A stretch of 64,000 bases of DNA from Streptomyces pactum (GTDB lineage Bacteria; Actinomycetota; Actinomycetes; Streptomycetales; Streptomycetaceae), in assembly GCF_002005225.1 (NCBI RefSeq), contig NZ_CP019724.1:7041001-7105000 (forward strand). The letters are read 5' to 3'. The notes beneath the pieces were generated by a model that saw only the letters and a program-made list of their open reading frames with translations, did no database searches and was not told the DNA's origin. Position 1 is the first letter of the stretch; every line of letters starts with the position of its first letter. This document shows positions 8,827 to 41,660 of the stretch, one piece after another. The translations under genes were made by a program, and so were the position numbers.

Positions 8827-8863
8827 GTTCGGTTGTGCTGTCTGTGCTCTCTACGGGGTCCGG

Positions 8864-9238
8864 CTACGCACTCTTGCGGCTGTCTCGCGGATGTACCGCG
8901 ATGTTCATCGCGCCGGAGCGCAGAACCGCCAGCCGCTCCTCGAGGACCTCTTCGAGTTCCTCGCGGGTGCGCCGCTCCATCAGCATGTCCCAGTGCGTAC
9001 GCGCGGGCTTGGCCTTCTTCTCCTCAGGGCCGTCGCCATCCACCAGGAGTGCCTGGGCCCCGCAGACCTTGCACTCCCACTCCGGCGGGATCTCCGCCTC
9101 GACCGAGAAGGGCATCTCGAATCGATGCCCCTTCTCGCATGCGTACTCCACGGCCTGGCGCGGGGCCAGGTCGATGCCGCGGTCCGTCTCGTAGCTGGTC
9201 ACCACGAGGCGCGTGCCGCGAAGAGCTCGCTCACTCAT
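8864..9238 (-). CDS. rbpA: RNA polymerase-binding protein RbpA
   Basis: The 124-residue actinobacterial transcription factor that binds RNA polymerase and group 1/2 sigma factors and stabilises the open complex at HrdB-type promoters. The start at 9238 has GGGAGG 8 bases upstream. The N-terminal tail MSERALRGTRLVVTSYETD, the core domain with Cys residues (CEKGHRF and ECKVCG), a basic linker (KKAKPARTHWDMLMERR) and the C-terminal sigma-interacting helix EELEEVLEERLAVLR are all in place. A SigR consensus promoter lies 62 bases upstream, as known for S. coelicolor rbpA, linking it to thiol-oxidative stress. Confidence 0.97.
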   Translation of the reverse strand: MSERALRGTRLVVTSYETDRGIDLAPRQAVEYACEKGHRFEMPFSVEAEIPPEWECKVCGAQALLVDGDGPEEKKAKPARTHWDMLMERRTREELEEVLEERLAVLRSGAMNIAVHPRDSRKSA

Positions 9239-9299
9239 GAATCGTGCCTCCCGGGCTTGTCGCCCACAGGACAGGTGTCGCTGTCGTCGTCATCCGGTC

Positions 9300-9325
9300 A
9301 ACGTCCGGGCGGCGGTAAAGATTCC
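9300..9325 (-). promoter_or_regulatory. SigR promoter of rbpA
   Basis: On the minus strand GGAAT (9325-9321) and GTT (9302-9300) are separated by exactly 18 bases, the SigR consensus GGAAT-N18-GTT. It lies 62 bases before the rbpA start. Confidence 0.9.
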
Positions 9326-9516
9326 CGTCCCGACTCCCGTTCCGGGCGTCTGCGTCGCCGTCGCAGTCGCAGCCTTGCAACCAGTGCAGTACCCGCCGAC
9401 GTCCGGTTTGTCACCTCTGCAAACAGATGCGACATAGCGTTTCGGCACCTTTGACGCGCAGTAACGGTACGCCTGGCAGGCCAAACGCGTACACTACAGC
9501 CCTTTCGCGCCGAGTG

Positions 9517-10863
9517 CTAAATCCTTTCGGGTACCGGGTTGCCCGCGTCGCCGATCGCCCGCCGCACCGGGACCCGCGCGAGCAGGGCGAAACCGATGAC
9601 GAAGAAGGCCACCAGCGAGATGATCGCGTCCCGGTAGCTCCCGGTGAGCTGGTAGGTGAGGCCGAACAGCAGCGGCCCGAGCCAGCTCATCCCGCGGTCG
9701 CTCAGCTCGTACGCCGAGAAGTACTCGGCCTCCTTGCCGGGCGGCACCAGGTGGGAGAAAAGCGAGCGGGACAGCGCCTGGCTGCCGCCCAGGACGAGAC
9801 CGATCCCGGCGGCCAGCACGAAGAACCACACCGGCTCGCCGGCCGGCAGGAAGTACCCGGCCGCGAGCGTCACGGTCCAGGCCACCAGCGACCCGAGGAT
9901 CGTGCGCTTCGCCCCGTACGTCCGGGCCAGCCGGCCCAGCGCCAGCGCGCCCGCCACCGCCAGGAGCTGGACCAGCAGGACGGCCACGATGAGCGTGGAC
10001 TGTCCGAGGTCCAGTTCCCTGGAGCCGTACACCGAGGCCTGGGAGATCACCGTCTGGATGCCGTCGTTGTAGACGAGGTACGCCAGCAGGAAGGCCAGCG
10101 TCAAAGGACGGCGCCGCATGTCGCGGACGGTCGCCGCGAGCTGCCGGAACCCGGGCAGGGCGGACTCCCGTGCGGGAGCGCGCCGGTCCCGCAGCCGCCG
10201 TAGCGGGATGAGCGCGAAGGCGCCCCACCACAGACCGGCCGACGCCAGGCAGACACGGACCGCGGCGCTCTCGCTCAGCCCGAAGGAGTCGTGGGCCGTG
10301 TAGAGGATCAGGTTCGCGATCAGCACCAGGGCCCCCGCCGCGTACCCGAAGGCCCAGCCGCGGGAGGAGACCGCGTCGCGTTCCTCGGGCGGGGCGATCT
10401 GCGGCAGGTAGGAGTTGTAGAGCATCATCGCCACCGACTGAGCGGCGTTGGCGACGACCAGGAGCAGACCGCCGAGCAGGTAGCGGTCGCCGTCGAGGAG
10501 GAACATGCAGGTCGTGGCCGCGGCCCCGGTGTACGCGGCGGCGGCCAGCAGCGGCTTCTTGCGGCCCGAGCGGTCGGCCGCGGCCCCCACCAGGGGCATC
10601 ACCAGCACCGCCACGATCACCGACAGCGACACCGAGTACGCGAAGAACGACCCGGCGCGCACGGGTATGCCGAGCGGGTGGACGTATCCCTCCGGGTCCG
10701 CCGCCGACTCGGCGACCGACGTCAGGTAGGGCCCCAGGAACACGGTGAGCACGCTCGTGGAGTAGACGGAGCACGCCCAGTCGTAGAAGTACCAGCCGCG
10801 CTGTTCGCGCCGCCTGCCGTCGGCGCCGTCGGCCGCTTCCGTCCGCAGGGTGTCGGTGCCCAC
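9517..10863 (-). CDS. MFS transporter, UMF1/Atg22-like
   Basis: A 448-residue multi-pass membrane protein with about 12 predicted segments. The start region RGWYFYDWACSVYSTSVLTVFLGPYL and the later NSYLPQIAPPEERDAVSSRGWAFGY are hallmarks of the UMF1/Atg22-like branch of the major facilitator superfamily, thought to export amino acids or small metabolites. The usual MFS loop GAAADRSGRKKPLL follows segment 2. The GTG at 10863 has GAGGG upstream. It follows the glycerophosphodiesterase gene on the same strand, 73 bases after its stop. The substrate is not predictable from sequence. Confidence 0.85.
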   Translation of the reverse strand: MGTDTLRTEAADGADGRRREQRGWYFYDWACSVYSTSVLTVFLGPYLTSVAESAADPEGYVHPLGIPVRAGSFFAYSVSLSVIVAVLVMPLVGAAADRSGRKKPLLAAAAYTGAAATTCMFLLDGDRYLLGGLLLVVANAAQSVAMMLYNSYLPQIAPPEERDAVSSRGWAFGYAAGALVLIANLILYTAHDSFGLSESAAVRVCLASAGLWWGAFALIPLRRLRDRRAPARESALPGFRQLAATVRDMRRRPLTLAFLLAYLVYNDGIQTVISQASVYGSRELDLGQSTLIVAVLLVQLLAVAGALALGRLARTYGAKRTILGSLVAWTVTLAAGYFLPAGEPVWFFVLAAGIGLVLGGSQALSRSLFSHLVPPGKEAEYFSAYELSDRGMSWLGPLLFGLTYQLTGSYRDAIISLVAFFVIGFALLARVPVRRAIGDAGNPVPERI

Positions 10864-14235: not shown

Positions 14236-16068
14236 TCAGGAGGTCTCGGCCGCCACCGCCTTGGCGGGAACCGTCTCCGGCGTGGCCGGCTCCACCGCGG
14301 TCACCTCCCGCGCCGCCGTTTCCACCGGGACCGGCGTCGCCTCCACGGCGACCCGCGTCGGCTCGGCCGAGGGAGGCGTCGGATCGGCCCCGACCGGCAT
14401 CGACTCGGCCGAGACCGGCGCCGCCCCGGCCGCGGCCGGTGTCGGTTCGGCGTCCGCCTGCGGCCGCTCCGGTTCTGGTTCGTCCTCGACGTCCTTCTTC
14501 TCGAAGACCTTCCTCCCGGCCTCCTCCTCCGCCACGGGCACCTGCTCTCCGTCCGCCGGTGTCGTGCGCGGCGGGAGCAGGTCGAGCACGGCCTTCCGGT
14601 GGGCGTCGCTCGTCGCGTCGTCGTAGGGGTCCGGCGTGGCCGGGACCTGGAGGCGGTGCACCGGTCCGGTGCCCAGGCGGGCGTATCCCCGGCCGGGCGG
14701 CACCTGCTCCACGGGCGTGGTGTGCGGGGGGACGCCGAGCACCGTCGCCAGCTCGTCCGCCGTGGCCGGGCCGAGGACGACCCGCGCGCGCGTGTGCTGC
14801 CGTACGGCGTCGCTGAGGCTGTCCAGGGCGTCCAGTTGGTCGGCGACGACCACCGTCACGTTCGCGGCGCGGCCGTGCCGCAGGGGGACCTGGAGCAGGG
14901 ACTGCGGGTCCTTGCGGCCGTCCGCGGCGGCCAGGTGCGCGAACGCGCTCGGCCGGTCCAGGAAGACCCACAGCGGCCGCTTGGTGTCGTCAGGCGCCGG
15001 CCGGCCCTCCTGACGGGCCCGGTTGACGGAGATCAGCCGGCGTTCCGTCTCGGCCGCGGCCCACTCCAGGCTGGTCAGCGCCCCGGTGAGGCCGCACTCG
15101 ACGGCCAGGACGCCGTCCCGGCCGACCAGGCAGGCGTACTCGCCGGTGCCGCCGCCGTCGACGATCAGCAGGTCGCCGTGGCGCAGTGCCTGGAGCGCGA
15201 CCGAGCGCAGCAGGGTGGACGTGCCGGTACCGGGCTGCCCCAGGACCAGCAGGTGGGGCTCGGTCGAGCGGATGCCGGTACGCCAGACGACCGGGGGCAC
15301 GTCGCGCCGCTCCGCGCCGTGGGTGAGCGGGAGGGTGCGCTGGACCCGGGTCGGGTCGGTGAAGCCGAGGACGGTCTCACCGGGCGCCGTCACGAAGCGC
15401 TGTGCGGCGATGTCGGTGGGGAGTGCCGGGAGTACGTCGACGGAGAGGTGGTTGGCCTCTTCGTCCCAGGTGAAGCGGTACTCCCGGCCCCGGCCGGACT
15501 TGGCGGTGAGCAGGTGCTCGATCCGGGCCCGGGCCTCGGCCTCCCCGTCGGTGAAGTACGCGGGGTAGCGGATCACCAGGTGGGCGAAGCGGCCGGTGCC
15601 GTCGAACTCGTACGCGGGGAACGCCTTCTCCCACGTGCCGCCGTGGACGTACAGGGGTTCCGGGTCCTCCGTGATCGAGAAGTACGGGACCAGCGCCTCG
15701 TAGAGCGACTGCAGACGCGTGGTCCGGGAGCCGTCGGGACCCTCCGGCTCCGCCGGGGTGCGGTCCCTGCCCTGCCAGGCTGCCGCCGCCATCAGGGCGA
15801 TGACGGCGAGCAGTGGGCCGTACGGCACGAGGGCCACGACCAGGACCACCGAGGCCACCAGGAACAGCAGCGCGCCGCGCCGGTCCTTGGGGGTCTCGGA
15901 CCATCTGCGCCGCGCGGCCGCGGCCAGGCGGCGCAGACCGCGGGCGATCGTGATCAGCGGCTGGAGGACGTCGGTGGCACTGTCGGCCGCCGTCCGGGCC
16001 AGCTCCCGGCTCCGGGCGAGCTGTGCGCCGCCGTTGCTCAGAATGCGGGGGAGGGGCCGCCGGGCCAC
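14236..16068 (-). CDS. sffA: SffA, FtsK/SpoIIIE-like sporulation protein
   Basis: A 610-residue protein. An N-terminal segment is followed by two close membrane spans (ALLFLVASVVLVVALVPYG, LLAVIALMAAAAW), a central domain, and an ATPase-like domain with LGQPGTGTSTLLRS near residue 283 and LLIVDGGGTG. The C-terminal ~130 residues are a Pro/Ala/Glu/Thr-rich tail. In S. coelicolor the smeA-sffA operon is sporulation-specific; SmeA localises SffA to sporulation septa and the pair affects spore chromosome segregation and septation. GTG at 16068 follows AGGAGG. The P-loop position normally held by Lys is Thr here (GTGTST rather than GxGKS), so canonical ATP hydrolysis is doubtful. smeA lies 51 bases upstream on the same strand. 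Confidence 0.85.
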   Translation of the reverse strand: MARRPLPRILSNGGAQLARSRELARTAADSATDVLQPLITIARGLRRLAAAARRRWSETPKDRRGALLFLVASVVLVVALVPYGPLLAVIALMAAAAWQGRDRTPAEPEGPDGSRTTRLQSLYEALVPYFSITEDPEPLYVHGGTWEKAFPAYEFDGTGRFAHLVIRYPAYFTDGEAEARARIEHLLTAKSGRGREYRFTWDEEANHLSVDVLPALPTDIAAQRFVTAPGETVLGFTDPTRVQRTLPLTHGAERRDVPPVVWRTGIRSTEPHLLVLGQPGTGTSTLLRSVALQALRHGDLLIVDGGGTGEYACLVGRDGVLAVECGLTGALTSLEWAAAETERRLISVNRARQEGRPAPDDTKRPLWVFLDRPSAFAHLAAADGRKDPQSLLQVPLRHGRAANVTVVVADQLDALDSLSDAVRQHTRARVVLGPATADELATVLGVPPHTTPVEQVPPGRGYARLGTGPVHRLQVPATPDPYDDATSDAHRKAVLDLLPPRTTPADGEQVPVAEEEAGRKVFEKKDVEDEPEPERPQADAEPTPAAAGAAPVSAESMPVGADPTPPSAEPTRVAVEATPVPVETAAREVTAVEPATPETVPAKAVAAETS

Positions 16069-16119
16069 TGCTGCCTCCTGGAGTGCGTACGTGCGGATGT
16101 CGGGCGGGGAGAGCGGGCT

Positions 16120-16314
16120 TCAGAACTTGATTCCGCTGAGGAGGCCCGCCAGGCTCTCGCCGCCCGCCTTGATGCTCGGGGCGATGGCCGTACTCGCCAG
16201 GTAGAAGCCGAACAGGACCGCGACCAGCGCGTGCGAGGCCTTGAGGCCGTCCTTGCGGAAGAAGATGAAGACGACGATGCCGAGCAGGACCACGCCTGAG
16301 ATCGAGAGGATCAT
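16120..16314 (-). CDS. smeA: SmeA, small sporulation membrane protein
   Basis: A 64-residue protein, almost all membrane: a first span ILSISGVVLLGIVVFIFF, a short basic loop RKDGLKAS, and a second span ALVAVLFGFYLASTAIAP. The start at 16314 has AGGAG 7 bases upstream. Size, topology and position directly before the sffA homologue match S. coelicolor SmeA, which recruits SffA to sporulation septa. Expression is expected only in sporulating aerial hyphae. The upstream 16315-16430 region is unusually A/T-rich for this genome (for example ATAAAAGG and GAATTTTCG), consistent with a regulated promoter, but I could not assign a sigma factor. Confidence 0.85.
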   Translation of the reverse strand: MILSISGVVLLGIVVFIFFRKDGLKASHALVAVLFGFYLASTAIAPSIKAGGESLAGLLSGIKF

Positions 16315-16613
16315 GTGAATTCTCCTGGTTCGCGGGGACAGTCACCATGAGTACTTCCAGGCTCACAGCATGTATCCATACGATAAAAGGTGCAAATGGG
16401 GGAATTTTCGTCGAATTACCCCACGCGGCGGAGTAGTCCTTGGGCCGGTTGAGCACGGCTGTTGCGCCCTGCCGGGTCGGTGCTGATCTTTACCTCGGGC
16501 ACCTCGGCTCATGTGCGGCGCGAGCCAGTACCCTGGCGATTCACTCGCACGGCCGCACCGCTCGCGGTCGTGCGCACAGTCCCCGGTATTCGTAGTGAGA
16601 GGTGGTCCGGCCG

Positions 16614-17006
16614 ATGAGTGAAGCCCCCGACCCGGAGGTCGTGGAGCTGGCGACCAAGATCTTCGATCTGGCCCGGCAGGGCCGGACCGAGGAACTGGTG
16701 GCGTATGTGGACGCCGGGGTCCCCGCCAATCTCACCAACGACCGCGGCGACTCCCTCGTCATGCTCGCCGCCTACCACGGCCACGCGGAAGCGGTGCGCG
16801 CGCTGCTGGCCCGTGGCGCCGAGGTCGACCGCGTCAACGACCGGGGTCAGACGCCGCTCGCCGGTGCCGCCTTCAAGGGTGAAACGGAAGTGACCAGGGC
16901 GCTTCTGGAGGCGGGCGCGGATCCGACCGCCGGTACGCCGTCGGCCGTCGACACGGCGCGGATGTTCGCCCGGACAGAGCTGCTGGAGCTGTTCGGCGCC
17001 CAGTGA
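16614..17006 (+). CDS. Ankyrin-repeat protein
   Basis: A 130-residue protein built of about three ankyrin repeats: LTNDRGDSLVMLAAYHGHAEAVRALLARGAEVD, then VNDRGQTPLAGAAFKGETEVTRALLEAGADP, with a degenerate first and last unit. Ankyrin repeats mediate protein-protein contacts, and there is no enzymatic domain. ATG at 16614 gives MSEAPDPEVVELATKIFDLARQG; the frame is open back to a GTG at 16602. It is divergent from smeA across 299 bases. Small single-domain ankyrin proteins occur next to catalase genes in some bacteria, but no such partner is seen here. Confidence 0.85.
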   Translation: MSEAPDPEVVELATKIFDLARQGRTEELVAYVDAGVPANLTNDRGDSLVMLAAYHGHAEAVRALLARGAEVDRVNDRGQTPLAGAAFKGETEVTRALLEAGADPTAGTPSAVDTARMFARTELLELFGAQ

Positions 17007-28232: not shown

Positions 28233-28263
28233 TTGGGCCGTTGTCAGACCGAGGACCTAGTCT
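28233..28263 (+). promoter_or_regulatory. Promoter of the SMC-like operon (leaderless)
   Basis: TTGGGC (28233-28238) and TAGTCT (28258-28263) are 19 bases apart. The GTG start at 28271 lies 7 bases after the -10, which implies a leaderless transcript. Confidence 0.5.
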
Positions 28264-28270
28264 GTGCACC

Positions 28271-29797
28271 GTGACTTCGCCTGCATCGACGGACAGCGTT
28301 CCGCCCCAGCTCAGCGCGGGGCCGCGCCCTGCCCCGGGCCCGGCCGCCGACGAGGGACTGGCGCGGCGGCTGCGCGCGCTCGCCTGCACGGCGCCGCTGC
28401 ACGACCTCGACGCGCGCAAGGCCAACCTCGCGGGTGAGTACTCGGTCTACGGCATGGCGGAGGTCGCCCTCGCCGCCATCGACCTCGTCACGCTGAACAT
28501 GGACTTCGACACGGGCGCCGACCACGACCAGATAGTGGCCCGGCTGGTCCCGCGCGTCGCCGCCCAGGCCCCGGCGCGGCCCGCCGCCGAGCACGAGCGG
28601 GTGGCCCGCTGGGTCCTGGAGAACCTGATCAACGTCGGCAGCGTCGACCGCGGCTTCCGCGCGGTGTACGGCACCTTCGGGCCGGACGGCACCTACGTGC
28701 GCCGCGACTACGACTTCAAGCTCCTCGAAGAGGTGCCCGGCCCCGGCGGCACCGTCTACCTGCGCACCACGGACGAGGCGGTCAACGTCCTCGTCGGCGC
28801 CCTGGACACCGACGTCACCAGCGCCCAGATCGCCGCCGAGGTCAAGCTGGAGGTGCTGATCAGCCGCGGCCGCCTCGCCGACGCCCAGCTCGCCGCCGAA
28901 CAGGCTCGGTACCGGACCGTGCAGTACTCGGAGACCCTGCGCAGGGCCCTCGACGCCACCCGGCGCAACGTCCGCGCGGTGGACTGGCTCAGCGCCGTGC
29001 CCGACATGATCGCCGAGGCGCTGGACCACGTCGCCGACCGGTACCGCCACGAGAACGCCATCCTCACCAACATCCGCAAGGCGCGCGACGAGTCCGAGGA
29101 CCTCGAGCACAAGCGCCGCGCGGCCGAGCTGGTCGACATCGTCAAGGACTGCATCCGCCGCCACACCCAGCTCCAGTCCCGGCTCCTGGAGGCGGGCCCG
29201 CTCTTCCGCGCCGAACAGGACCGGCAGGCCTTCGCCACCCCCCTGACGACCTCGGGCCTGGACCTGTACGGCCACCTCGTCGCCCCCGTCCTGCCGTTGC
29301 CCCTGGAGCGGGCGCTGCGTGTCACCGACGCCTTCTTCGCGCGGGGCACCGGTCTGCGTACGCCCGTCTCCGTCCGGGTCGGCGACCTCGTCGACATACT
29401 GCTGACCCCGCCGGTGGAGCGGGAGCACCTGGGCGCCGAGATGCCGGAGCCCGACCTGATCGCCACCCCGGACGACAGCCGCTTCAGCGAGGAGCAGCTC
29501 GCGGCGGCCATGGAGCTGCTCGACCTGCCGCACGACGCCCCGCGCCGGCTTTCCGGGCTGCTGGCCGACGCCCGTGCCAGGGACGCTGAGCTCCCGTACC
29601 TCGTGGCCCTGCTGGCCGTCCACGCGGCCAGCCCGCCGGTCGGCACCGCCTACCGGCAGGGCGAGCCGAAGCTGCTGTTCGCCGTGGACGACGGCACCGA
29701 GCTGGACGACCCCGAGTTCGGCGGCGCCGACCTCATCGTCGGCACGGCACTGCTGGACGCGGCCGGGATGGCCGCGGACCGCACGGAGGCGGCATGA
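28271..29797 (+). CDS. SMC-complex accessory protein, kleisin (MukF/JetA)-like
   Basis: A 508-residue soluble protein with no signal peptide. By position, size and helical content it corresponds to the kleisin-type first subunit of MukBEF/MksBEF or Wadjet (JetA) systems. An N-terminal helical region that could be a winged helix (EYSVYGMAEVALAAIDLVTLN) is followed by a middle with YVRRDYDFKLLEEV and TDEAVNVLVGALDTDVTSAQIAAEVKLEVL. Next come long charged helices (ALDHVADRYRHENAILTNIRKARDESEDL). The start is GTG at 28271, 7 bases after a -10 box. Its TGA overlaps the next ATG. I did not find a decisive motif, so the kleisin assignment is inference from context. Confidence 0.6.
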   Translation: MTSPASTDSVPPQLSAGPRPAPGPAADEGLARRLRALACTAPLHDLDARKANLAGEYSVYGMAEVALAAIDLVTLNMDFDTGADHDQIVARLVPRVAAQAPARPAAEHERVARWVLENLINVGSVDRGFRAVYGTFGPDGTYVRRDYDFKLLEEVPGPGGTVYLRTTDEAVNVLVGALDTDVTSAQIAAEVKLEVLISRGRLADAQLAAEQARYRTVQYSETLRRALDATRRNVRAVDWLSAVPDMIAEALDHVADRYRHENAILTNIRKARDESEDLEHKRRAAELVDIVKDCIRRHTQLQSRLLEAGPLFRAEQDRQAFATPLTTSGLDLYGHLVAPVLPLPLERALRVTDAFFARGTGLRTPVSVRVGDLVDILLTPPVEREHLGAEMPEPDLIATPDDSRFSEEQLAAAMELLDLPHDAPRRLSGLLADARARDAELPYLVALLAVHAASPPVGTAYRQGEPKLLFAVDDGTELDDPEFGGADLIVGTALLDAAGMAADRTEAA

Positions 29798-29925
29798 GCG
29801 ACCACCCCACGCACCGGCGTCGGGACCGGCACGGCGAGCACGAGCACCAGCAGCGCGAGCACCCCCAACGACAGCCGCAACAGCAGCAGCAACAGCGCCA
29901 GCACAGCGAGGAGTACCGACCGTGA
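29794..29925 (+). CDS. 43-residue Gln/His/Arg-rich peptide inside the SMC-like operon
   Basis: A short frame from ATG 29794 to TGA 29923-29925 encodes a peptide beginning MSDHPTHRRRDRHGEHEHQQ. It contains a run of six Gln and ends HSEEYRP. It overlaps the preceding stop by ATGA and the next start by GTGA, filling the space between the two genes exactly. Such perfect coupling at both ends argues for translation. It is highly basic and of low complexity, and I recognise no family. It could instead be a spacer that only relays ribosomes. Confidence 0.5.
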   Translation: MSDHPTHRRRDRHGEHEHQQREHPQRQPQQQQQQRQHSEEYRP

Positions 29926-30803
29926 CCGAGCACGTCGACCGGAGCGAACCGGAGGCGGGTGCCGTGCCGGCCACCGCGGCCGTCACGCCCGCCGACGCCG
30001 CCGACGCGGCGCGGCTCGTCGCCTTCGGCCTCCAGCCCAAACTGCTGCCCGCGCGTGACCAGGAGTACGCCGACCTGCTGCGCCGCTACCGCGAGGACCC
30101 GCCCTTCGCCCGGCTCGCCGACGCCGTGGCGGCCGGCCTCGGGCTGGTCGTCCTCGAGGTGTCCCCGCGCGCGGGGATGGCCGTGACCGCCGCCGAGGAC
30201 TCGGTGTTCGCCGTCCGCATGGGCGACTACGCGCGGCGTGCCGCCACCGACTCCGGCGACCGCTTCCTGCACGGCCTCGCGCACCTCGCCGTCGCCGCCA
30301 TGGCCTACCCGCGCCCCGAGGACCTCGCCGACGACGGCTACATCGGCCGCGTCACGGTCAACGGCGTGGACGCCTTCGTCCGCCAGGCCTGCCGGAAACT
30401 CGAGGAGCGGGCGGAGCGGCAGGGGGAGAACACGGACCCGGCCACCGACGCCCCGGGCCTGGAGGCCGCCTGGCGGATCTGGGCCCGGCGCAGCTCGACC
30501 GGCGCCACCAAGGACGCGCGTAGACTCCCCGGCTCCACCACCGGCATCGTCGGCAAGGCCGCCGCCTTCCTCACCGAGTCCGGCTTCCTCCAGCGCACCG
30601 GCGACGACAACGGCGGTACGTACCGCACCACGGCCCGCTACCAGCTCCAGGTGCGCGACATGGCGGGCAGCGCCGCCATGGCCGAGCTGCTGGACCTGGG
30701 TGTCGTCCCGGTGACCGACGGCACGGCGACGCTGCTGCCCGCCGAGGACACGGAGGACCTGGATCTGGTGGCCGACGCCGGACTGCCGTTCCACGCCTCC
30801 TGA
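29922..30803 (+). CDS. SMC-complex accessory protein, KITE (MukE/JetB)-like
   Basis: A 293-residue protein starting with GTG at 29922, overlapping the stop of the 43-residue ORF. After an acidic, Ala-rich N-terminus it has a helical region (LLRRYREDPPFARLADAVAAGLG), a beta segment (LVVLEVSPRAGMAVTAAEDSVFAV), helices around FLHGLAHLAVAAMAYP, and a C-terminal winged-helix-like part ending GTYRTTARYQLQVRDMAG. That layout and its place directly before the SMC-like ATPase match the MukE/MksE/JetB role, bridging kleisin and DNA. Sequence similarity to a named family is not certain. Confidence 0.55.
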   Translation: MTEHVDRSEPEAGAVPATAAVTPADAADAARLVAFGLQPKLLPARDQEYADLLRRYREDPPFARLADAVAAGLGLVVLEVSPRAGMAVTAAEDSVFAVRMGDYARRAATDSGDRFLHGLAHLAVAAMAYPRPEDLADDGYIGRVTVNGVDAFVRQACRKLEERAERQGENTDPATDAPGLEAAWRIWARRSSTGATKDARRLPGSTTGIVGKAAAFLTESGFLQRTGDDNGGTYRTTARYQLQVRDMAGSAAMAELLDLGVVPVTDGTATLLPAEDTEDLDLVADAGLPFHAS

Positions 30804-30852
30804 CATCGCCCCCCCCGCACCCCCGCTTCACGAAGACTTACGAGAGTCCGCC

Positions 30853-33800
30853 ATGTACGAGCTGTCCCGGGTCCGCCTCTACTCCATCGGACCCGCCGGT
30901 GCGCGATACGCCGACACCGTGCTTGACCTGCGCGGTGTGGGCGAGCCCGTGCCCGACCCCGCGCCCACGCAGGCGGAGTTCTTCGAGGAGGAGCCCGTCG
31001 GCCCGCCGCGCCGGCCCGCACCCGCCGGCGTGCTCTTCCTGGAGAACGGCGGTGGCAAGTCCGTGCTGCTCAAGCTGATCTTCTCGGTGATGCTGCCGGG
31101 TCACCGCAACACCCTGGGTGGCGCCAGTTCCGGCGTGCTGCGCAAGTTCCTGCTCGCCGACGACTGCGGACACGTGGCGCTGGAGTGGCAGCACGTCCAG
31201 ACCGGAGAGTGCGTCGTCGTCGGCAAGGCCAGCGAGTGGCGCGGGCGCCAGGTCTCGGGCGACCCGCGGAAGTTCGCCGAGGCCTGGTACTCGTTCCGGC
31301 CCGGTCCCGGACTGACGCTGGACAACCTGCCCGTCGCCGAGGCCACCGCCGTACGCCCGCCCGTCGAGGGCGTCTCCGGCGCCCAGGGACGGCGGCGCAC
31401 CATGAAGGGCTTCCGGGACGCCATCACCGAGGCCGGGAAGGCCTACCCGCACCTCGAGGTGCACTGGGAGGAGATCCACGACCGCTGGATCGAGCACCTC
31501 GGCGACCTCGGCCTCGACCCGGAACTCTTCCGCTACCAGCGCGAGATGAACGCCGACGAGGGCGAGGCCGCCGGCCTCTTCGCGGTCAAGAAGGACTCCG
31601 ACTTCACCGACCTGCTGCTGCGCGCCGTCACCGACACCCGCGACACCGACGGACTCGCCGACCTGGTCGGCGGCTTCGGCAACAAGCTGGGCCGGCGCGC
31701 CGAGCTGATCGCCGAACGCGACTTCACCGCCGGGTCCGTGGACCTTCTCGGCCGGATCGTCGAGGCCACCGACGCCCGCACGCGCGCCCGCGACATCCAC
31801 ACCGCCGCCGAGCGCCGGACCAGGAGCCTGGCGCGCCGGCTCTCCTCGCGCGGAACCCAGGAACGGGGCCGGGCCGGCGACCTCGCCCAGCGGGTCACCG
31901 CCGCCGCCTACGCCGTCACGCACGCCGAGTCCGCGCGGGACCGCAGCTCCCTCATCGCCGCCGAACTCGCCTACCGGCACGCCTCGCTGGCCCTGACCGG
32001 GGCCGAGAAGGCCGCCGCCGCGCAGAAGCGCGAACTCGCCGACGCGCGCACCCTGCACTCCGCCTGGCAGGCCGCCGAGGCGGTCCTGCGGCACCGCGCC
32101 GCCGCCGACCGCGTCGCCCGCGTGTCCGCCGCCATCCAGGAGGCCGAACGGGACGCCGCCCCCGCACTCGCCGCCCGCGCCAAGGCCGCCGTCGACCTCG
32201 TCCGCGCCCTGCACGCGGCGGCCGGGAAGGCCGAACACCACGCCAACGAGGAGGAGGAGCGGTCCGCCGCCCTCCAAGAGGTCAGCGACGCCGCCCACCG
32301 GGACTCCACCACCGCGGCCACCGAGGCGCAGCGCGCCCGCAGCGAGGCCGGGCATCTGCGCCAGCGCCTCACCGAGGTCGAACAGGAGACCGCCGAGGCG
32401 GTCCGCGCCGGCTGGCTCGACGACAGCGCGCCCGACGCCGACCCCGCCCGTGCCGCCCTCGCGGCCAGCGACGCCGAGAAGACGACCGTGGCGGCCTGGG
32501 ACACCGCCCGAGAGGCGGCACGCCGGGCCACGGAGCACGCGCGTGAGGCCGCCGCCGCGGAGAGCCGCGCAGAACTGACGGCGGCCCGCGCGGCGGACGC
32601 CGCCACCGCGGCCGAGCGCGCCCACGAGGCCGAGCACCGCACGGCCCGGGCCCTGACGGCCGAGGAACGGCTCGCCGAACTGCTCGGCCTGGACGCCGGG
32701 ACCCGCCCGGGCATCCCCCAGCCCCGCCGGGACGCGGACCGTGGCGACCGGGCATCCGCGCCGCCCAGCGCACCGGAGGGCGCGCTGACCCCCGAGGAGC
32801 TCGACCGCTTCGCCGACGAGCTGGGCGGGCTGCTCGAGGACACCGTCTCCTCAGCCGAACGCCAGCTCTTCGAGCTGCGCACCGCCGCCGCCGACGACTC
32901 CCGCATCCTCGGCGCGCTCGGCGACGGCGGACTGCTGCCGCCCGGCCCGGACGTGCTGGCCACCGTGGAGTTCCTCGGCGAGCACGGCATCCCCGCCCTG
33001 CCCGGCTGGCGCTACCTCGCGCAGGCCGTCGACCCCGCCGACCACGCGCGCGTGCTGGCCGCGCGGCCCGAGCTGGTCGACGGCGTGATCATCACCGACC
33101 CCGACTCGCACACCCGCGCCCGCGACGTCCTCGGCGACGCGGCCCTGCTGCCGCGCTCCGCCGTCGCCGTCGGCACGGCCGCCGCCCTGCTCGCGCCGAC
33201 CCCGGCGCCGGACTCCGACACCGGGGACGTCTTCCTCGTACCGCCGAACCCCGCCATGCACGACGAGCACGCCGCCGACGAGGAGCGGCACGCGCTGCGC
33301 GCGCGGGCGACGGAGCGGGACGAGGAGATCCGCGCCCTCGCCGCCCGGCTCGGCAAGGACCGGGAGCTGGCGGCCCGGCTCTCCTCCTGGCGCGCCGGCT
33401 GCCCCGCCGGACGCCTCGCCGAACTGGCGCGGACCGCCGAGGAGGTGCGCTCCTTCGCCGAGGAGACCGAGGCCGAGCTGACCGAGGCGCGCACCGTGCG
33501 GGCCGAGGCCGACGAGAGTGCCGCCGAGGCCGTACGGATGCGGGACGAGCGGCAGGAGGCCGCGCAGAAGGCCCGCCGCGCCGCCGACGCCCTCGCCGGA
33601 CTCGCCTTCCGGCTGCGCGAGCGCGCCGGCTGGCAGGTCAGGCTCCGCGAACTGGCCGACGAGGGCGCCGAGGCCGAGGCCCGCGCCCAGGCTTGCCTGG
33701 AGCGGGCCCGCGCCGCCGACGAGGACCGCCGCGCCGCCCAGCGGGCCGCCGACGACGCCCGACGCACCGCCCGCACACTGCGCGCCGAGCGCTCCGAGAT

Positions 33801-35520
33801 CGCCGGCGCCCCCGACGACGTACCGCAGGACGCGCCGGACGACGGCACGAGCGCGCCGAAGACGTCCCTGCCCGCCCTCCGCGAGGCCTACCGTGCGGCC
33901 TCCCAGCTCTACGAGAAGGTCGGCGTCGGCGCCGACCTGCGGGCCGAACAGGCCCGCGCGGAGAGCGACGAGAGCGCGGCCCGCGCCGAACTGGACCGGC
34001 TCAGCAACAAGGTGCGCACCAGGGCCGGGCAACTGCTGGAGTCGCCCGACGGCTCCGACGGACCGTCCCGGCAGGCCGCCGCCGCCCGCGCCGAGGAACT
34101 GGTGCAGCTCCTGGAGACCCGCATGTCGAGCGCGAGCGAACAGCTCGGCCGGCTGCGCGGCGAGGCCGAACGGCTCGCGCCCGAGGACGGCGACGCCCAC
34201 ACCGAACTCCCCGAGGAGCTCCTCCCGCGCGACGCCGAACACGCCCAGACCCTGCTGCGCACGGCGACCGCCGAACTCGCCGCCCGCAACGAGGCACTGA
34301 GGCAGGCCCGCGAGGCCCACGCCGAACTGCTCGACGCGCACCGGGCCGCCGAGGACGCGGCCGGCGGGTTCGACGAGGTCGCCGCCATGCTCCGCGACCT
34401 GCTGCGCGAGCAAGCGCCCGACGAGGAGCGGGAGGAGTCCGAGCCCTATCCGGGCGGTCTGGAGGAGGCCCGGCAGTCCGCCGCCGAGGCCCGCCGCTCG
34501 CTGCGCGGCTGCGCCGCCGACCTGTCCTCCGCCGAGGCCGCCGTGCGCGAGGCGAGCGACGTCCTCGTCCGGCACGCCAACTCCACCCGCTACGAGCAGG
34601 TGCGCACCCCGGCCCGCCAGCAGATCCGCGAGCTGCCAGCCTCCGCGCTGCCCGAGCACGCGGGCAAGTGGGCGGACGCCTTCGCGCCCCGCCTCCGTGT
34701 CCTGACCGACGAACTGGCCCAGTTGGAACGCAACCGCGACTCGATCGTGGACCGGCTGCGCGGCCTGGTCGAGTCGGCCCTCGCCACGCTCCGCTCCGCC
34801 CAGCGCCTCTCCCGGCTGCCGGAGGGCCTCGGTGAGTGGTCGGGGCAGGAGTTCCTGCGCATCCGCTTCGAGGAACCCGACCAGGCAACACTCACCGAGC
34901 GGCTCGGCGAGGTCGTCGACGAGGCCACCCGGGCCGCCGTGAAGAAGAACTCCGACCTGCGCCGCGACGGCATGTCCCTGCTGCTGCGCGGCGTCGCCGC
35001 CGCCCTTCAGCCCAAGGGCGTCGCCGTCGAGATCCTCAAGCCCGACGCCGTACTGCGCGCCGAGCGCGTCCCCGTCGGCCAGATGGGTGACGTCTTCTCC
35101 GGTGGCCAGCTCCTCACCGCGGCCATCGCCCTGTACTGCACGATGGCCGCGCTCCGAAGCAACGACCGGGGCCGCGACCGGCACCGGCACGCAGGCACCC
35201 TGTTCCTCGACAACCCCATCGGCCGTGCCAACGCCACCTACCTGCTGGAGCTCCAGCGCGCGGTGTCCGACGCGCTCGGCGTCCAGCTCCTCTACACCAC
35301 CGGCCTGTTCGACACGACGGCGCTGGCCGAGTTCCCGCTGGTGATCCGGCTGCGCAACGACGCCGACCTCAGGGCCGGTCTCAAGTACATCAGCGTGGAG
35401 GAGCACCTGAGGCCGGGACTGCCCCAGCCGGCCCCGGCCGGTGACGGCGCAGGCGAGACGGTGCACAGCGAGATCACGGCGACCCGGATGTTCAGACGGC
35501 CCACCCAGTCACCCGCCTAG
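30853..35520 (+). CDS. Giant SMC-like ATPase (MukB/MksB/JetC-like)
   Basis: A 1555-residue protein with split ATPase heads joined by long coiled coils. The N-terminal head carries the Walker A FLENGGGKSVLLKLI (Lys 69). Residues ~300-600 and ~810-1250 are Ala/Glu/Arg heptad-rich helices; a globular, hinge-like block lies at ~645-805. The C-terminal head shows the ABC signature VFSGGQLL (~1415) and the Walker B TLFLDNPIGRAN (~1453), where Asn replaces the usual catalytic Glu. This is the condensin-like motor of the operon, expected to act on DNA with the two smaller subunits. It is larger than typical MukB or JetC. No JetD-type nuclease gene follows. The 3' end overlaps a convergent oxygenase gene by 12 bases. 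Confidence 0.8.
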   Translation: MYELSRVRLYSIGPAGARYADTVLDLRGVGEPVPDPAPTQAEFFEEEPVGPPRRPAPAGVLFLENGGGKSVLLKLIFSVMLPGHRNTLGGASSGVLRKFLLADDCGHVALEWQHVQTGECVVVGKASEWRGRQVSGDPRKFAEAWYSFRPGPGLTLDNLPVAEATAVRPPVEGVSGAQGRRRTMKGFRDAITEAGKAYPHLEVHWEEIHDRWIEHLGDLGLDPELFRYQREMNADEGEAAGLFAVKKDSDFTDLLLRAVTDTRDTDGLADLVGGFGNKLGRRAELIAERDFTAGSVDLLGRIVEATDARTRARDIHTAAERRTRSLARRLSSRGTQERGRAGDLAQRVTAAAYAVTHAESARDRSSLIAAELAYRHASLALTGAEKAAAAQKRELADARTLHSAWQAAEAVLRHRAAADRVARVSAAIQEAERDAAPALAARAKAAVDLVRALHAAAGKAEHHANEEEERSAALQEVSDAAHRDSTTAATEAQRARSEAGHLRQRLTEVEQETAEAVRAGWLDDSAPDADPARAALAASDAEKTTVAAWDTAREAARRATEHAREAAAAESRAELTAARAADAATAAERAHEAEHRTARALTAEERLAELLGLDAGTRPGIPQPRRDADRGDRASAPPSAPEGALTPEELDRFADELGGLLEDTVSSAERQLFELRTAAADDSRILGALGDGGLLPPGPDVLATVEFLGEHGIPALPGWRYLAQAVDPADHARVLAARPELVDGVIITDPDSHTRARDVLGDAALLPRSAVAVGTAAALLAPTPAPDSDTGDVFLVPPNPAMHDEHAADEERHALRARATERDEEIRALAARLGKDRELAARLSSWRAGCPAGRLAELARTAEEVRSFAEETEAELTEARTVRAEADESAAEAVRMRDERQEAAQKARRAADALAGLAFRLRERAGWQVRLRELADEGAEAEARAQACLERARAADEDRRAAQRAADDARRTARTLRAERSEIAGAPDDVPQDAPDDGTSAPKTSLPALREAYRAASQLYEKVGVGADLRAEQARAESDESAARAELDRLSNKVRTRAGQLLESPDGSDGPSRQAAAARAEELVQLLETRMSSASEQLGRLRGEAERLAPEDGDAHTELPEELLPRDAEHAQTLLRTATAELAARNEALRQAREAHAELLDAHRAAEDAAGGFDEVAAMLRDLLREQAPDEEREESEPYPGGLEEARQSAAEARRSLRGCAADLSSAEAAVREASDVLVRHANSTRYEQVRTPARQQIRELPASALPEHAGKWADAFAPRLRVLTDELAQLERNRDSIVDRLRGLVESALATLRSAQRLSRLPEGLGEWSGQEFLRIRFEEPDQATLTERLGEVVDEATRAAVKKNSDLRRDGMSLLLRGVAAALQPKGVAVEILKPDAVLRAERVPVGQMGDVFSGGQLLTAAIALYCTMAALRSNDRGRDRHRHAGTLFLDNPIGRANATYLLELQRAVSDALGVQLLYTTGLFDTTALAEFPLVIRLRNDADLRAGLKYISVEEHLRPGLPQPAPAGDGAGETVHSEITATRMFRRPTQSPA

Positions 35521-36657
35521 CCCGGCCCCGCCGCCGGGGCCGGCGAGCCGTTCCAGCAGCCACTCGTGGAAGATCCCGATGTGGTGCTCGGTCGGCACGA
35601 GGACCCCGCCCGCACGGTAGGCCCGCGACGCCATGGCGGGCTGGGTCCGCTCGCACGCCTCGAAGTCCTGCGTGTTGACCCGGTGGAACAGCTCGACCGA
35701 CTTCGACAGGTCGGCCCCGGACGCCACGACCTCGGGTGCGTACAGCCAGTCGCACTCGACGACCGTGCGGTCCTCGGCGAGCGGGAACATGCGGTGCAGG
35801 ATCACGTGGTCGGGCACGAGGTTGACGAAGACCGTCGGCTTGACGGTGACGGCGTAGTAGCGGCGGTCCTGGTCCTGAGACACCTCGGGCAGCCTGCCGA
35901 GGCCCTCGCTGCCGTCGACCGTGAAGCCCCGCACCTCCTCGCCGAACTCGGCGCCGTGGCCCACGTAGTACTGGGCCGCGTAGCCGTCGGCGAACTCCGG
36001 CAGCACGTCGGTGAGTTCGGGGTGGATGGTGGCGCAGTGGTAGCACTCCATGAAGTTTTCGACGATCAGCTTCCAGTTCGCCCGCACGTCGTACCTGACG
36101 CGCCGCCCGAGCGCCAGGTTCTCCGTCCCGTACCGCTCGATCGCGGCCGGGTCTCCGAGCCGTTCGACGACCGCGCCCCGCACCGTCTCCTCGAAGGAGG
36201 GCGGCGCCTCGGCCAGGCACACCCAGGCGTAGCCGAGCCACTCGCGCAGGGCCACCCCGACCAGGCCGTACGCCGAACGGTCGACGTCCGGCATCCGCGT
36301 CAGGCCGGGCGCGGCGACCAGCCTGCCGTCGAGGTCGTACGTCCACGCGTGGTACGGACACTGGAGGCTGCGGCGCACCTCGCCGGAGTCCGCCACACAG
36401 AGCCGGGCTCCGCGGTGCCGGCAGATGTTGAGGAAGGCGCGCAGCTCACCCGCGCGGTTACGCGTGATGACGACGCTCTCGCTCCCGACCTGCACGGTGC
36501 GGAAGGCGCCGGGCCGGTCCAGGTCGGCGCCGCGGACGGCACAGAACCACATCGACTCGAAGACGTGCCGCTGTTCCTGACGGAAGACCTCCGGGTCGGT
36601 GTAGTAATGGCCCGGCAGGGTCGCGATGAGGCTGGGGGACAGGGGAGTCGTCGTCAC
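35509..36657 (-). CDS. Rieske non-heme iron oxygenase (GbcA-like)
   Basis: A 382-residue oxygenase alpha subunit. The Rieske [2Fe-2S] ligands are Cys79, His81, Cys100 and His103 ([10 protein letters not shown] and [10 protein letters not shown]). The mononuclear iron site includes His207 and His212 in [15 protein letters not shown]. The length and the sarcosine-oxidase neighbour match glycine betaine monooxygenase GbcA, which removes a methyl group as formaldehyde; carnitine- or stachydrine-type substrates are alternatives. The start is GTG at 36657 behind GAGGAG, overlapping the sarcosine-oxidase stop as GTGA. Electrons probably come from the ferredoxin and reductase encoded divergently at 42.9-44.5 kb. 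Confidence 0.88.
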
Positions 36658-37859
36658 GTGCGTGCTCCTCGGGCGGGCGCGGCGGCGGTGGGGGTCCCCC
36701 CGCTCGGGCGGAGCCGAGGGTGGGGGCGGGCAGGGTCGAACAGACCGATGGGGTGGGCGGTGGCGCCGGTCAGGGCCAGGTCGGCGAGGATCTCGCCCAC
36801 GACGGGCGTGAACTTGAAGCCGTGCCCGGAGAAGCCGCAGGCCACGGTCACCGAGCCGGGGTGCGCGGGGTGCCGCGCGATGACGAAGTGCTCGTCCGGC
36901 GTGGTGGTGTACATACAGGTCGCGGCCTTGAGGAAGGTCCCGGGCAGGTCCGGGACACGGCCGGACATGTGCGCGGCCATCGCCTCCACCTCGTGGTCGT
37001 GCACGGTCCGGTCGATGGTCTCCGGGGTGGTGGCCCGCCCCTTGCGGAAGAAGGCGACCTTGGCACCGTGATCGGGACCGTCGATGGCCGGGAAGCCGTA
37101 GACCTGGACGCCGGCCGCGTCCTCCCAGACGTAGATCGGCTGGTTGGCGGGGAGGAAGGGCCGGGTGCCGTTCCTCGGCTGGAACCAGTACATGACCTGC
37201 CGCTCGACCGTGAAGGGCACCCCCAGGTCCGTCAGCAGCCGCGGTGCCCAGGCGCCCGGGCAGACGACCAGTTGGGAGGCGGTGTAGGTGTTCTCGGCGG
37301 TGTGCACCCGCACGCCGTCCCGGTACGGCTCCCACCGTGTCATCGGCTCGTCGAAGTGCAGGTCGGCGTCCTGCCGGGTGGCGAGCTGGAGGTGGGCCGC
37401 GACCGTGTTCTCGGGGCGCAGGAGACCGGCCTTGGCCTCGTGGAGCGCGACCTCGTCGTCCGCCGGCGTGAGCGTCGGGAAACGGCGGCGGATCTCCCTG
37501 GCGTCCAGGATCTCGTGCGGCAGGTCCCACTCGCGTGCCGAGCGCAGCGAGCCGGAGACGGTCCACGAGTCGGGCCGGCCGACCATCACCCCGCCGCAGA
37601 GCAGGGCGATGTCCCGGCCGGTGGCCCGCTCCAGGTCCTCGTACAGCTCGTAGGCCCGCAGGAGGAGAGGTACGTACGCCGGGTCCTCGAAGTACGACTG
37701 CCGGGTGACCCGGGAGCCGCCGTGGCTGGAGCCCCGGTTGTGCACCGGGCCGAACTTCTCCAGACCAAGTACGCGGGCGCCCCGCGCGGACAGATGGTGG
37801 ACGGCGGCGCTGCCCATGCCGCCGAGCCCGATGACGATCACGTCGTAGGTGGGGGACAT
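36654..37859 (-). CDS. Monomeric sarcosine oxidase / N-methyl amino acid oxidase
   Basis: A 401-residue flavoprotein of the MSOX/SolA type. The dinucleotide fold is [52 protein letters not shown] and the C-terminal [18 protein letters not shown] are family hallmarks. It oxidises N-methyl amino acids such as sarcosine to the amine plus formaldehyde and hydrogen peroxide. ATG at 37859 has AGGAGG upstream. The monomeric form is used here rather than the four-subunit SoxBDAG. It is coupled to the Rieske gene downstream and follows the GcvT-fusion dehydrogenase gene by 11 bases. Confidence 0.9.
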
Positions 37860-37870
37860 CGGAGCGCCTC

Positions 37871-41424
<3,554 letters not shown>

Positions 41425-41440
41425 GGCAAGCTCCTCTGCT

Positions 41441-41480
41441 GTTGCGCATGGCACGATGGGTTGCGCTATGGGGAACATAG
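41441..41480 (-). promoter_or_regulatory. Candidate IclR operators before the demethylation operon
   Basis: Two GTTGCGC-type elements (GTTGCGCATGG at 41441-41451 and GTTGCGCTATGG at 41460-41471) are followed by CTATG-GGGAA-CATAG (41466-41480), a 5-5-5 inverted repeat. A near-identical GTTGCGCATAGCG occurs in the promoter gap between iclR and the ferredoxin gene. Confidence 0.5.
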
Positions 41481-41660
41481 TGGGAATGCCGTCGAGTGGC
41501 CGTCAAGAGGTGCGGGTTAACCCTTGGCAAAAGGGCCGGGGGCGGTCTCGGGGCCGAATCCCGCCGGACGCACCACGGCGCGGAACCGGAGGAATTCCTT
41601 CGGATTCCCGGCCCCGCGCCGTCGGTCCACTCCCGCTCCGTCGAGTCCTGCGCGTCCCGC

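Follow-up and report, generated by a model that had tools for sequence, protein, structure and literature searches.

The window analysed here, a stretch of 64,000 nucleotides of the Streptomyces pactum chromosome, carries an operon that encodes the JetABC core of a type III Wadjet system but no JetD nuclease. Sequence comparison places it in a group of close JetD-less copies from Streptomycetaceae, to which JetD-less copies from Frankiaceae are related, and likewise places a second, mostly JetD-less lineage in the Amycolatopsis group. The best reading of the operon, which we hold to be somewhat probable, is a domesticated, nuclease-free loop extruder that would act on the chromosome and derive from a JetABCD defence ancestor. 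The operon lacks the nuclease, yet its family occurs in almost all related genomes examined; this suggests the conversion of a defence system into a second machine for organising the chromosome.

The genes all lie on the plus strand and are tightly packed, as a sequence-only reading had described them (frames of 508, 43, 293 and 1555 aa), and their coordinates and sizes were borne out. The first, a jetA-like gene in the kleisin position (28271..29797, 508 aa, GTG start), matches the PADLOC JetA3 model PDLC00567 over residues 24-506 (E=3.1e-186, 618 bits). The last, encoding a jetC-like SMC ATPase (30853..35520, 1555 aa), is matched by several JetC3 models, including PDLC00588 (E=0) and PDLC00589 (8e-241 across residues 1-1548), with a JetC3 score of 1415 bits, and it contains a Walker A motif ENGGGKS at residue 64, a signature motif FSGGQ at 1415 and a Walker B motif LFLDNP at 1450. 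With matches far beyond chance, JetA and JetC belong to the type III Wadjet JetABC core. Between them lies a jetB-like gene in the KITE position (29922..30803, 293 aa, GTG start), whose product is matched by no model in PADLOC or NCBIfam and by none above the cut-off in Pfam. PADLOC silence does not discriminate here, since JetB of the JetD-containing operon L009 is equally silent. Compared with the product of gene two in JetD-containing JetABCD operons, the window JetB shows 31-54% identity, and its assignment would follow from position and from orthology with the JetB slot of these complete operons; its homologues, among the best 120 of 1230, are mostly named 'hypothetical protein'. The gene order is kleisin-KITE-SMC without a nuclease, kleisin and KITE being named by position, and of the JetABC/MukFEB-like assignment first made from the letters, JetA, JetC and the lack of JetD are confirmed by profile searches while JetB stands through orthology. 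With Escherichia coli MukBEF the operon has in common the F-E-B gene order and the SMC-type ATPase; hhalign comparisons of JetA with the single E. coli MukF and of JetB with the single E. coli MukE gave no significant match, nor did PDB sequence searches with JetA, JetB and JetC. The company of the ATPase gene, on which the assignment had been staked, was found at 127 of 127 loci, each matching JetA, JetB and JetC; as these loci were selected through JetA, a JetC occurring alone would escape this check.

The 43-codon frame that joins jetA to jetB (29794..29925, plus strand, with 4-base overlaps ATGA and GTGA) had been counted as a member of the operon, a claim that did not survive comparison with relatives. 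It has no Pfam match and no conserved counterpart in 25 relatives, of which nine begin jetB at a start overlapping the jetA stop, 11 have unrelated short frames of 20-82 codons and five have none. This variable junction rules out the peptide as a conserved subunit and leaves the frame as a non-conserved spacer. On the other side of jetC, the convergent gene (35509..37566, minus strand) is indeed a Rieske ring-hydroxylating oxygenase, as had been proposed (Pfam Ring_hydroxyl_A 6.9e-49, Rieske 2.4e-19), and it occupies the place held by jetD in complete type III operons.

The lack of an adjacent JetD-type gene was upheld. No JetD was detected in the 12 kb downstream of the window jetC (JetD profile, six frames, E<=10), and the whole genome, a single 8.55-Mb contig, gave no match to the PADLOC JetD3 model or to the Pfam JetD_C profile. 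The JetD3 search is the stronger of the two, because JetD_C missed one of three JetD3 proteins tried. In a control set of 14 genomes JetD_C matched in Corynebacterium glutamicum alone and the PADLOC models for JetA3, JetD3 and JetD2 were silent throughout; JetD3 does match at accessory operons. Elsewhere in the genome, where a JetD/DUF2220-like gene had been thought possible, the single find is a DUF2399/JetD2-type protein (G000:C1:1028849-1030120), the sole one in the genome and 6 Mb from the operon. The corresponding 665-aa frame (8856-10853 of locus L188, approximately G000:C1 1028855-1030852, minus strand) encodes an N-terminal JetC2 fragment followed by JetD2, and it is probably the remnant of a type II Wadjet system. 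Scans of three neighbouring genes identified a UvrD-type helicase, a methylase and an AAA protein. A gene resembling a contractile-injection sheath, named by reading the sequence, also lies near it.

The region downstream of jetC was scanned in six frames at 127 loci, including the window, with a JetD profile built from 19 JetDs. There were 21 matches at 106 bits or more, 19 of them being the profile-building sequences, while 103 loci gave nothing at E<=10 with at least 2.6 kb examined at each, and three were too short to score. A nuclease hidden in another frame or on the other strand downstream is thereby excluded at the 103 JetD-less loci. Five of these are second fetches of a contig already represented, and the 98 distinct loci come from Streptomycetaceae (38, including the window), Frankiaceae (10) and Pseudonocardiaceae (50). 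Because the loci were picked via JetA, they do not sample the family at random. The scoring left out 17 loci that have JetA but lack a usable jetC frame, as well as L120 and L124 and the short loci with JetA alone (L001-L006, L030-L058).

The family is present almost throughout the genus. Counting the genome of the window, JetA3 was found in 147 of 150 Streptomyces genomes, and the three negative assemblies are G050 (82% complete), G073 (98%, 1140 contigs) and G079 (78%). Within Streptomycetaceae it was found in 61/61 genomes and 17/17 genera; in a sample of the class it was found in 52 of 345 genomes and 6 of 126 genera, which are Streptomycetaceae, Frankiaceae and one weak match elsewhere. 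JetA3 occurs in 19 of 35 Frankiaceae genomes and, in any JetD state, in 49 of 150 genomes from the family to which an Amycolatopsis genome belongs; the match in genome G121 is weak (1e-30). Since JetA3 scores alone do not separate core from accessory copies, the figures of 147 and 61 denote genomes with any JetA3; indeed, the single JetA3 match of one Streptomycetaceae genome (G494) is an accessory JetD-containing copy (L087).

Strong JetD3 matches (at least 150 bits) are found in 11 of the 150 genomes of the genus, with weak ones (20-32 bits) in 10 more. All 11 contain at least two JetA3 matches each, and in every one JetD follows a divergent second copy whose JetA is 26-53% identical to that of the window (accessory copies L007, L009, L011, L013, L015, L017, L019 and L099-L102). 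The core copies recovered from eight of these genomes have a JetA 87-94% identical to the window's and no adjoining JetD, the contig of one (L016) stopping inside jetC, and eight genomes keep the core copy alongside complete JetABCD. Seven of the accessory copies (L007, L009, L011, L013, L015, L017 and L019) have their gene order and their JetA3 and JetC3 families in common with the window, as well as FSGGQ and LDNP in the six scanned (all but L017); of these six, L007 and L009 did not match the Walker A pattern, and L011, L013, L015 and L019 did. The window differs from them in having no JetD and in its JetA, which is 36-53% identical to theirs; the nearest JetD-containing copies (L072, L123, L130 and L148) reach 60-63%. 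While the window family is near-fixed in Streptomycetaceae, JetD-containing type III Wadjet is patchy. In one genome (G090) a JetD-containing type III operon (L101) lies at most 17 kb from one chromosome end, and a second JetD match (G090:C1:9222617-9223438) lies about 16 kb from the opposite end.

Among 21 Pseudonocardiaceae genomes, JetD3 is strong in three and weak in three. One of the strong matches lies at the jetABC locus, namely in Amycolatopsis rifamycinica (L173), where JetD3 at 15671-16753 overlaps the end of jetC; the others lie elsewhere in genomes G537 and G557, each of which also has a JetD-less locus (L125 and L185, respectively). A near sister of the A. rifamycinica locus, L151, has no JetD3 at the corresponding place.

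The history of the nuclease was traced on a bootstrapped JetA tree of 55 rows. The core rows of Streptomycetaceae (17) and those of Frankiaceae (10) each group together with 100% bootstrap, and the union of these groups has a support of 87/78; 24 of the 27 rows are scorable for JetD, L060, L061 and L117 stopping inside jetC or too close behind it, and 24 of 24 are JetD-less. In the second lineage, which comprises Amycolatopsis, Prauserella, Haloechinothrix and others, most copies lack JetD; it also holds the JetD-containing accessory copies L013, L019 and L069 together with A. rifamycinica L173. The tree needs four JetD changes, with or without the unscorable L060, L061 and L117, and the branches starred in it force at least three; in 200 bootstrap trees the JetD-less rows never formed one side of a single branch. 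The tree cannot tell gain of JetD from loss, and long JetD-containing branches leave its deeper joins unsure. Our reading is that JetD was probably lost separately at least twice, with two or three losses and either retention or regain in A. rifamycinica.

Selection on jetABC is purifying. In five ortholog pairs, dN/dS by NG86 is 0.07-0.15 for JetA, 0.11-0.16 for JetB and 0.15-0.19 for JetC, and YN00 gives 0.03-0.05 for JetC in five pairs. In addition, ENGGGKS, FSGGQ and the LDNP Walker B are all kept in 102 of 102 JetD-less jetC frames of more than 1300 aa, the window included, while among 19 JetD-containing jetC frames nine have all three motifs and 10, mostly distant copies, deviate in at least one. 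Loss of the catalytic glutamate (Walker B D-N) was considered as a special trait of JetC and set aside, as most scanned JetD-containing copies share LDNP. A short or broken jetC frame, possibly an assembly error, was met in the JetD-less L064, L071 and L089 and in the JetD-containing L017. A decayed surface for contact with JetD was sought through conserved columns in the JetD-less Streptomycetaceae copy and was not found: of the columns conserved in 12 JetD-containing copies, that copy has lost 1 of 97 in JetA, 0 of 43 in JetB and 3 of 142 in JetC. With starts that are approximate, JetC measures about 1515-1750 aa in Streptomycetaceae, 1560-1910 in the Frankiaceae core and 1470-1510 in the Amycolatopsis group; for most JetD-containing copies the range is 1460-1530. 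Some Frankiaceae JetD-less proteins (L110 and L114, for example) thus extend up to several hundred residues beyond most JetD-containing copies, again with approximate starts.

MukBEF and Wadjet complexes load on DNA and extrude loops in an ATP-driven manner. By family resemblance, dimers of JetC with a JetA kleisin and a JetB KITE would likewise draw on ATP for loading onto DNA and for loop extrusion, and without JetD they would be unable to cut the DNA. A further and less certain step, by analogy with MksBEF, is that a JetABCD defence ancestor may have become a housekeeping chromosome organiser beside Smc-ScpAB. Of the two functions offered by the sequence-only reading, a chromosomal condensin and a defence system that recruits a distant nuclease, the former is favoured by the near-fixation in Streptomycetaceae, the family grouping in the JetA tree and the apparent repeated loss of the nuclease, and the latter is weakened by 82 of 150 genomes that have JetA3 without a JetD2 match or a strong JetD3, the two JetD types searched in the genus. 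Domestication is also supported by the confinement of strong JetD3 matches in the genus to the side of divergent copies, the intact motifs and the low dN/dS, and by the Haloechinothrix locus L177, where jetABC sits between whiA and gap. Several findings count against it: the operon lies in the outer chromosome, with some 1.48 Mb between it and one of the ends; JetA3 is patchy beyond Streptomycetaceae; A. rifamycinica has JetD after jetC, two Pseudonocardiaceae genomes have JetD3 elsewhere, and G494 has the accessory copy alone; no sequence similarity to MukE or MukF could be detected; and the columns conserved in JetD-containing copies are almost completely retained.

The main alternative, which is tentative and which we find rather doubtful, is that JetABC would still be a defence system, sensing small circular DNA by extruding it in full and restricting it through compaction or silencing. 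The analogy is with Smc5/6, which in eukaryotes restricts extrachromosomal DNA by compaction or silencing. Speaking against it is the near-fixation across Streptomycetaceae, which to our knowledge is unusual for a defence system in a whole family, and so do the eight genomes that retain the core copy alongside complete JetABCD. In its favour, the core copy barely differs from JetD-containing copies at the positions conserved in the latter, plasmids are the target of a relative, the MksBEFG of C. glutamicum (PMC7083940), and the locus lies toward a chromosome end, as Wadjet systems in Streptomyces tend to do (PMC10482375). Smc5/6 is also named in connection with anti-viral immunity (PMC10586767).

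It is improbable that the complex works with a nuclease in trans, recruiting JetD2, JetD3 from a different copy or some other Toprim nuclease encoded elsewhere, and as a general rule such recruitment is unlikely. The JetD2-type protein of this genome, the undecayed positions conserved in JetD-containing copies and the strong JetD3 found away from a JetD-less locus in two Pseudonocardiaceae genomes would fit it, whereas only 64 of 150 genomes have a JetD2 match, fragments counted, and 147 of the 150 have JetA3. The 82 genomes with neither JetD2 nor strong JetD3 point the same way; six of them have a weak match to the JetD3 model (21-32 bits). Moreover, the type II JetC fragment at the N terminus of the JetD2 of this genome points to another system. 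Finally, a decaying and functionless remnant of a lost defence system is scarcely credible, as the missing nuclease gene and the broken jetC frames of L064, L071 and L089 (possibly assembly errors) are set against a dN/dS of 0.07-0.19, intact ATPase motifs and JetA3 in nearly all genomes of the genus.

Chromosome organisation, the function preferred here, has been shown for the Pseudomonas aeruginosa MksBEF, which acts in chromosome segregation and is used beside SMC (PMC7485682); the window operon is likened to it by analogy. The text of PMC7485682 names no nuclease (the terms MksG and nuclease occur 0 times each). The authors of PMC7083940 set the C. glutamicum MksBEFG, which acts on plasmids, against P. 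aeruginosa MksBEF, which acts on the chromosome. C. glutamicum MksBEFG, classed as type I Wadjet (PMC12287153), and Mycobacterium smegmatis EptABCD are four-subunit relatives from the same superfamily and phylum (PMC10123090, PMC12287153) that keep MksG/JetD and act on plasmids, unlike the window operon, which has no JetD. SMC is present in Streptomyces (PMC8410768, PMC13121528). The complex of the window would be additional to Smc-ScpAB, in contrast to MukBEF.

MukBEF replaces Smc-ScpAB. For Streptomyces in general we propose, on a judgement that is evenly poised, an unrecognised second condensin that would have arisen by nuclease loss from a type III Wadjet and would operate on a linear chromosome beside Smc-ScpAB, such domestication having taken place at least twice in Actinomycetota. 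If true, repeated domestication would be direct evidence for a route from plasmid defence to chromosome organisation, and the Streptomyces field would gain a candidate second SMC complex. The apparent separate losses, at least two, make the proposed step from defence to organiser testable, and nuclease-carrying and nuclease-free type III cores co-occur in one genus. The review PMC10586767 treats as unresolved where Wadjet came from and how it relates to other SMC complexes, and its authors speculate that MukBEF and MksBEF have a past as defence systems. In the literature searched, as far as the texts were available, no JetD-less type III system and no second SMC complex in Streptomyces were found described.

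At 15 of 30 Streptomycetaceae loci examined, the five genes downstream include a NIT-domain sensor kinase and/or a small partner gene (the NIT domain being assigned by Pfam on one kinase), and neither is within the five downstream genes of the window locus. In Pseudonocardiaceae, where 21 loci were examined, the five upstream genes include a whiA-cluster gene at 10 loci and the five downstream genes a gap-cluster gene at nine. As for the window itself, two pieces about 6 kb apart, 33735-34473 (739 bp, an internal segment of jetC) and 40822-41489 (668 bp), have 100% identical copies elsewhere in the chromosome. These copies abut directly in both terminal inverted repeats (L103 12920-14325; L104) and share one base at the join, a junction that looks like fragments captured by end joining or like an artefact of assembly.
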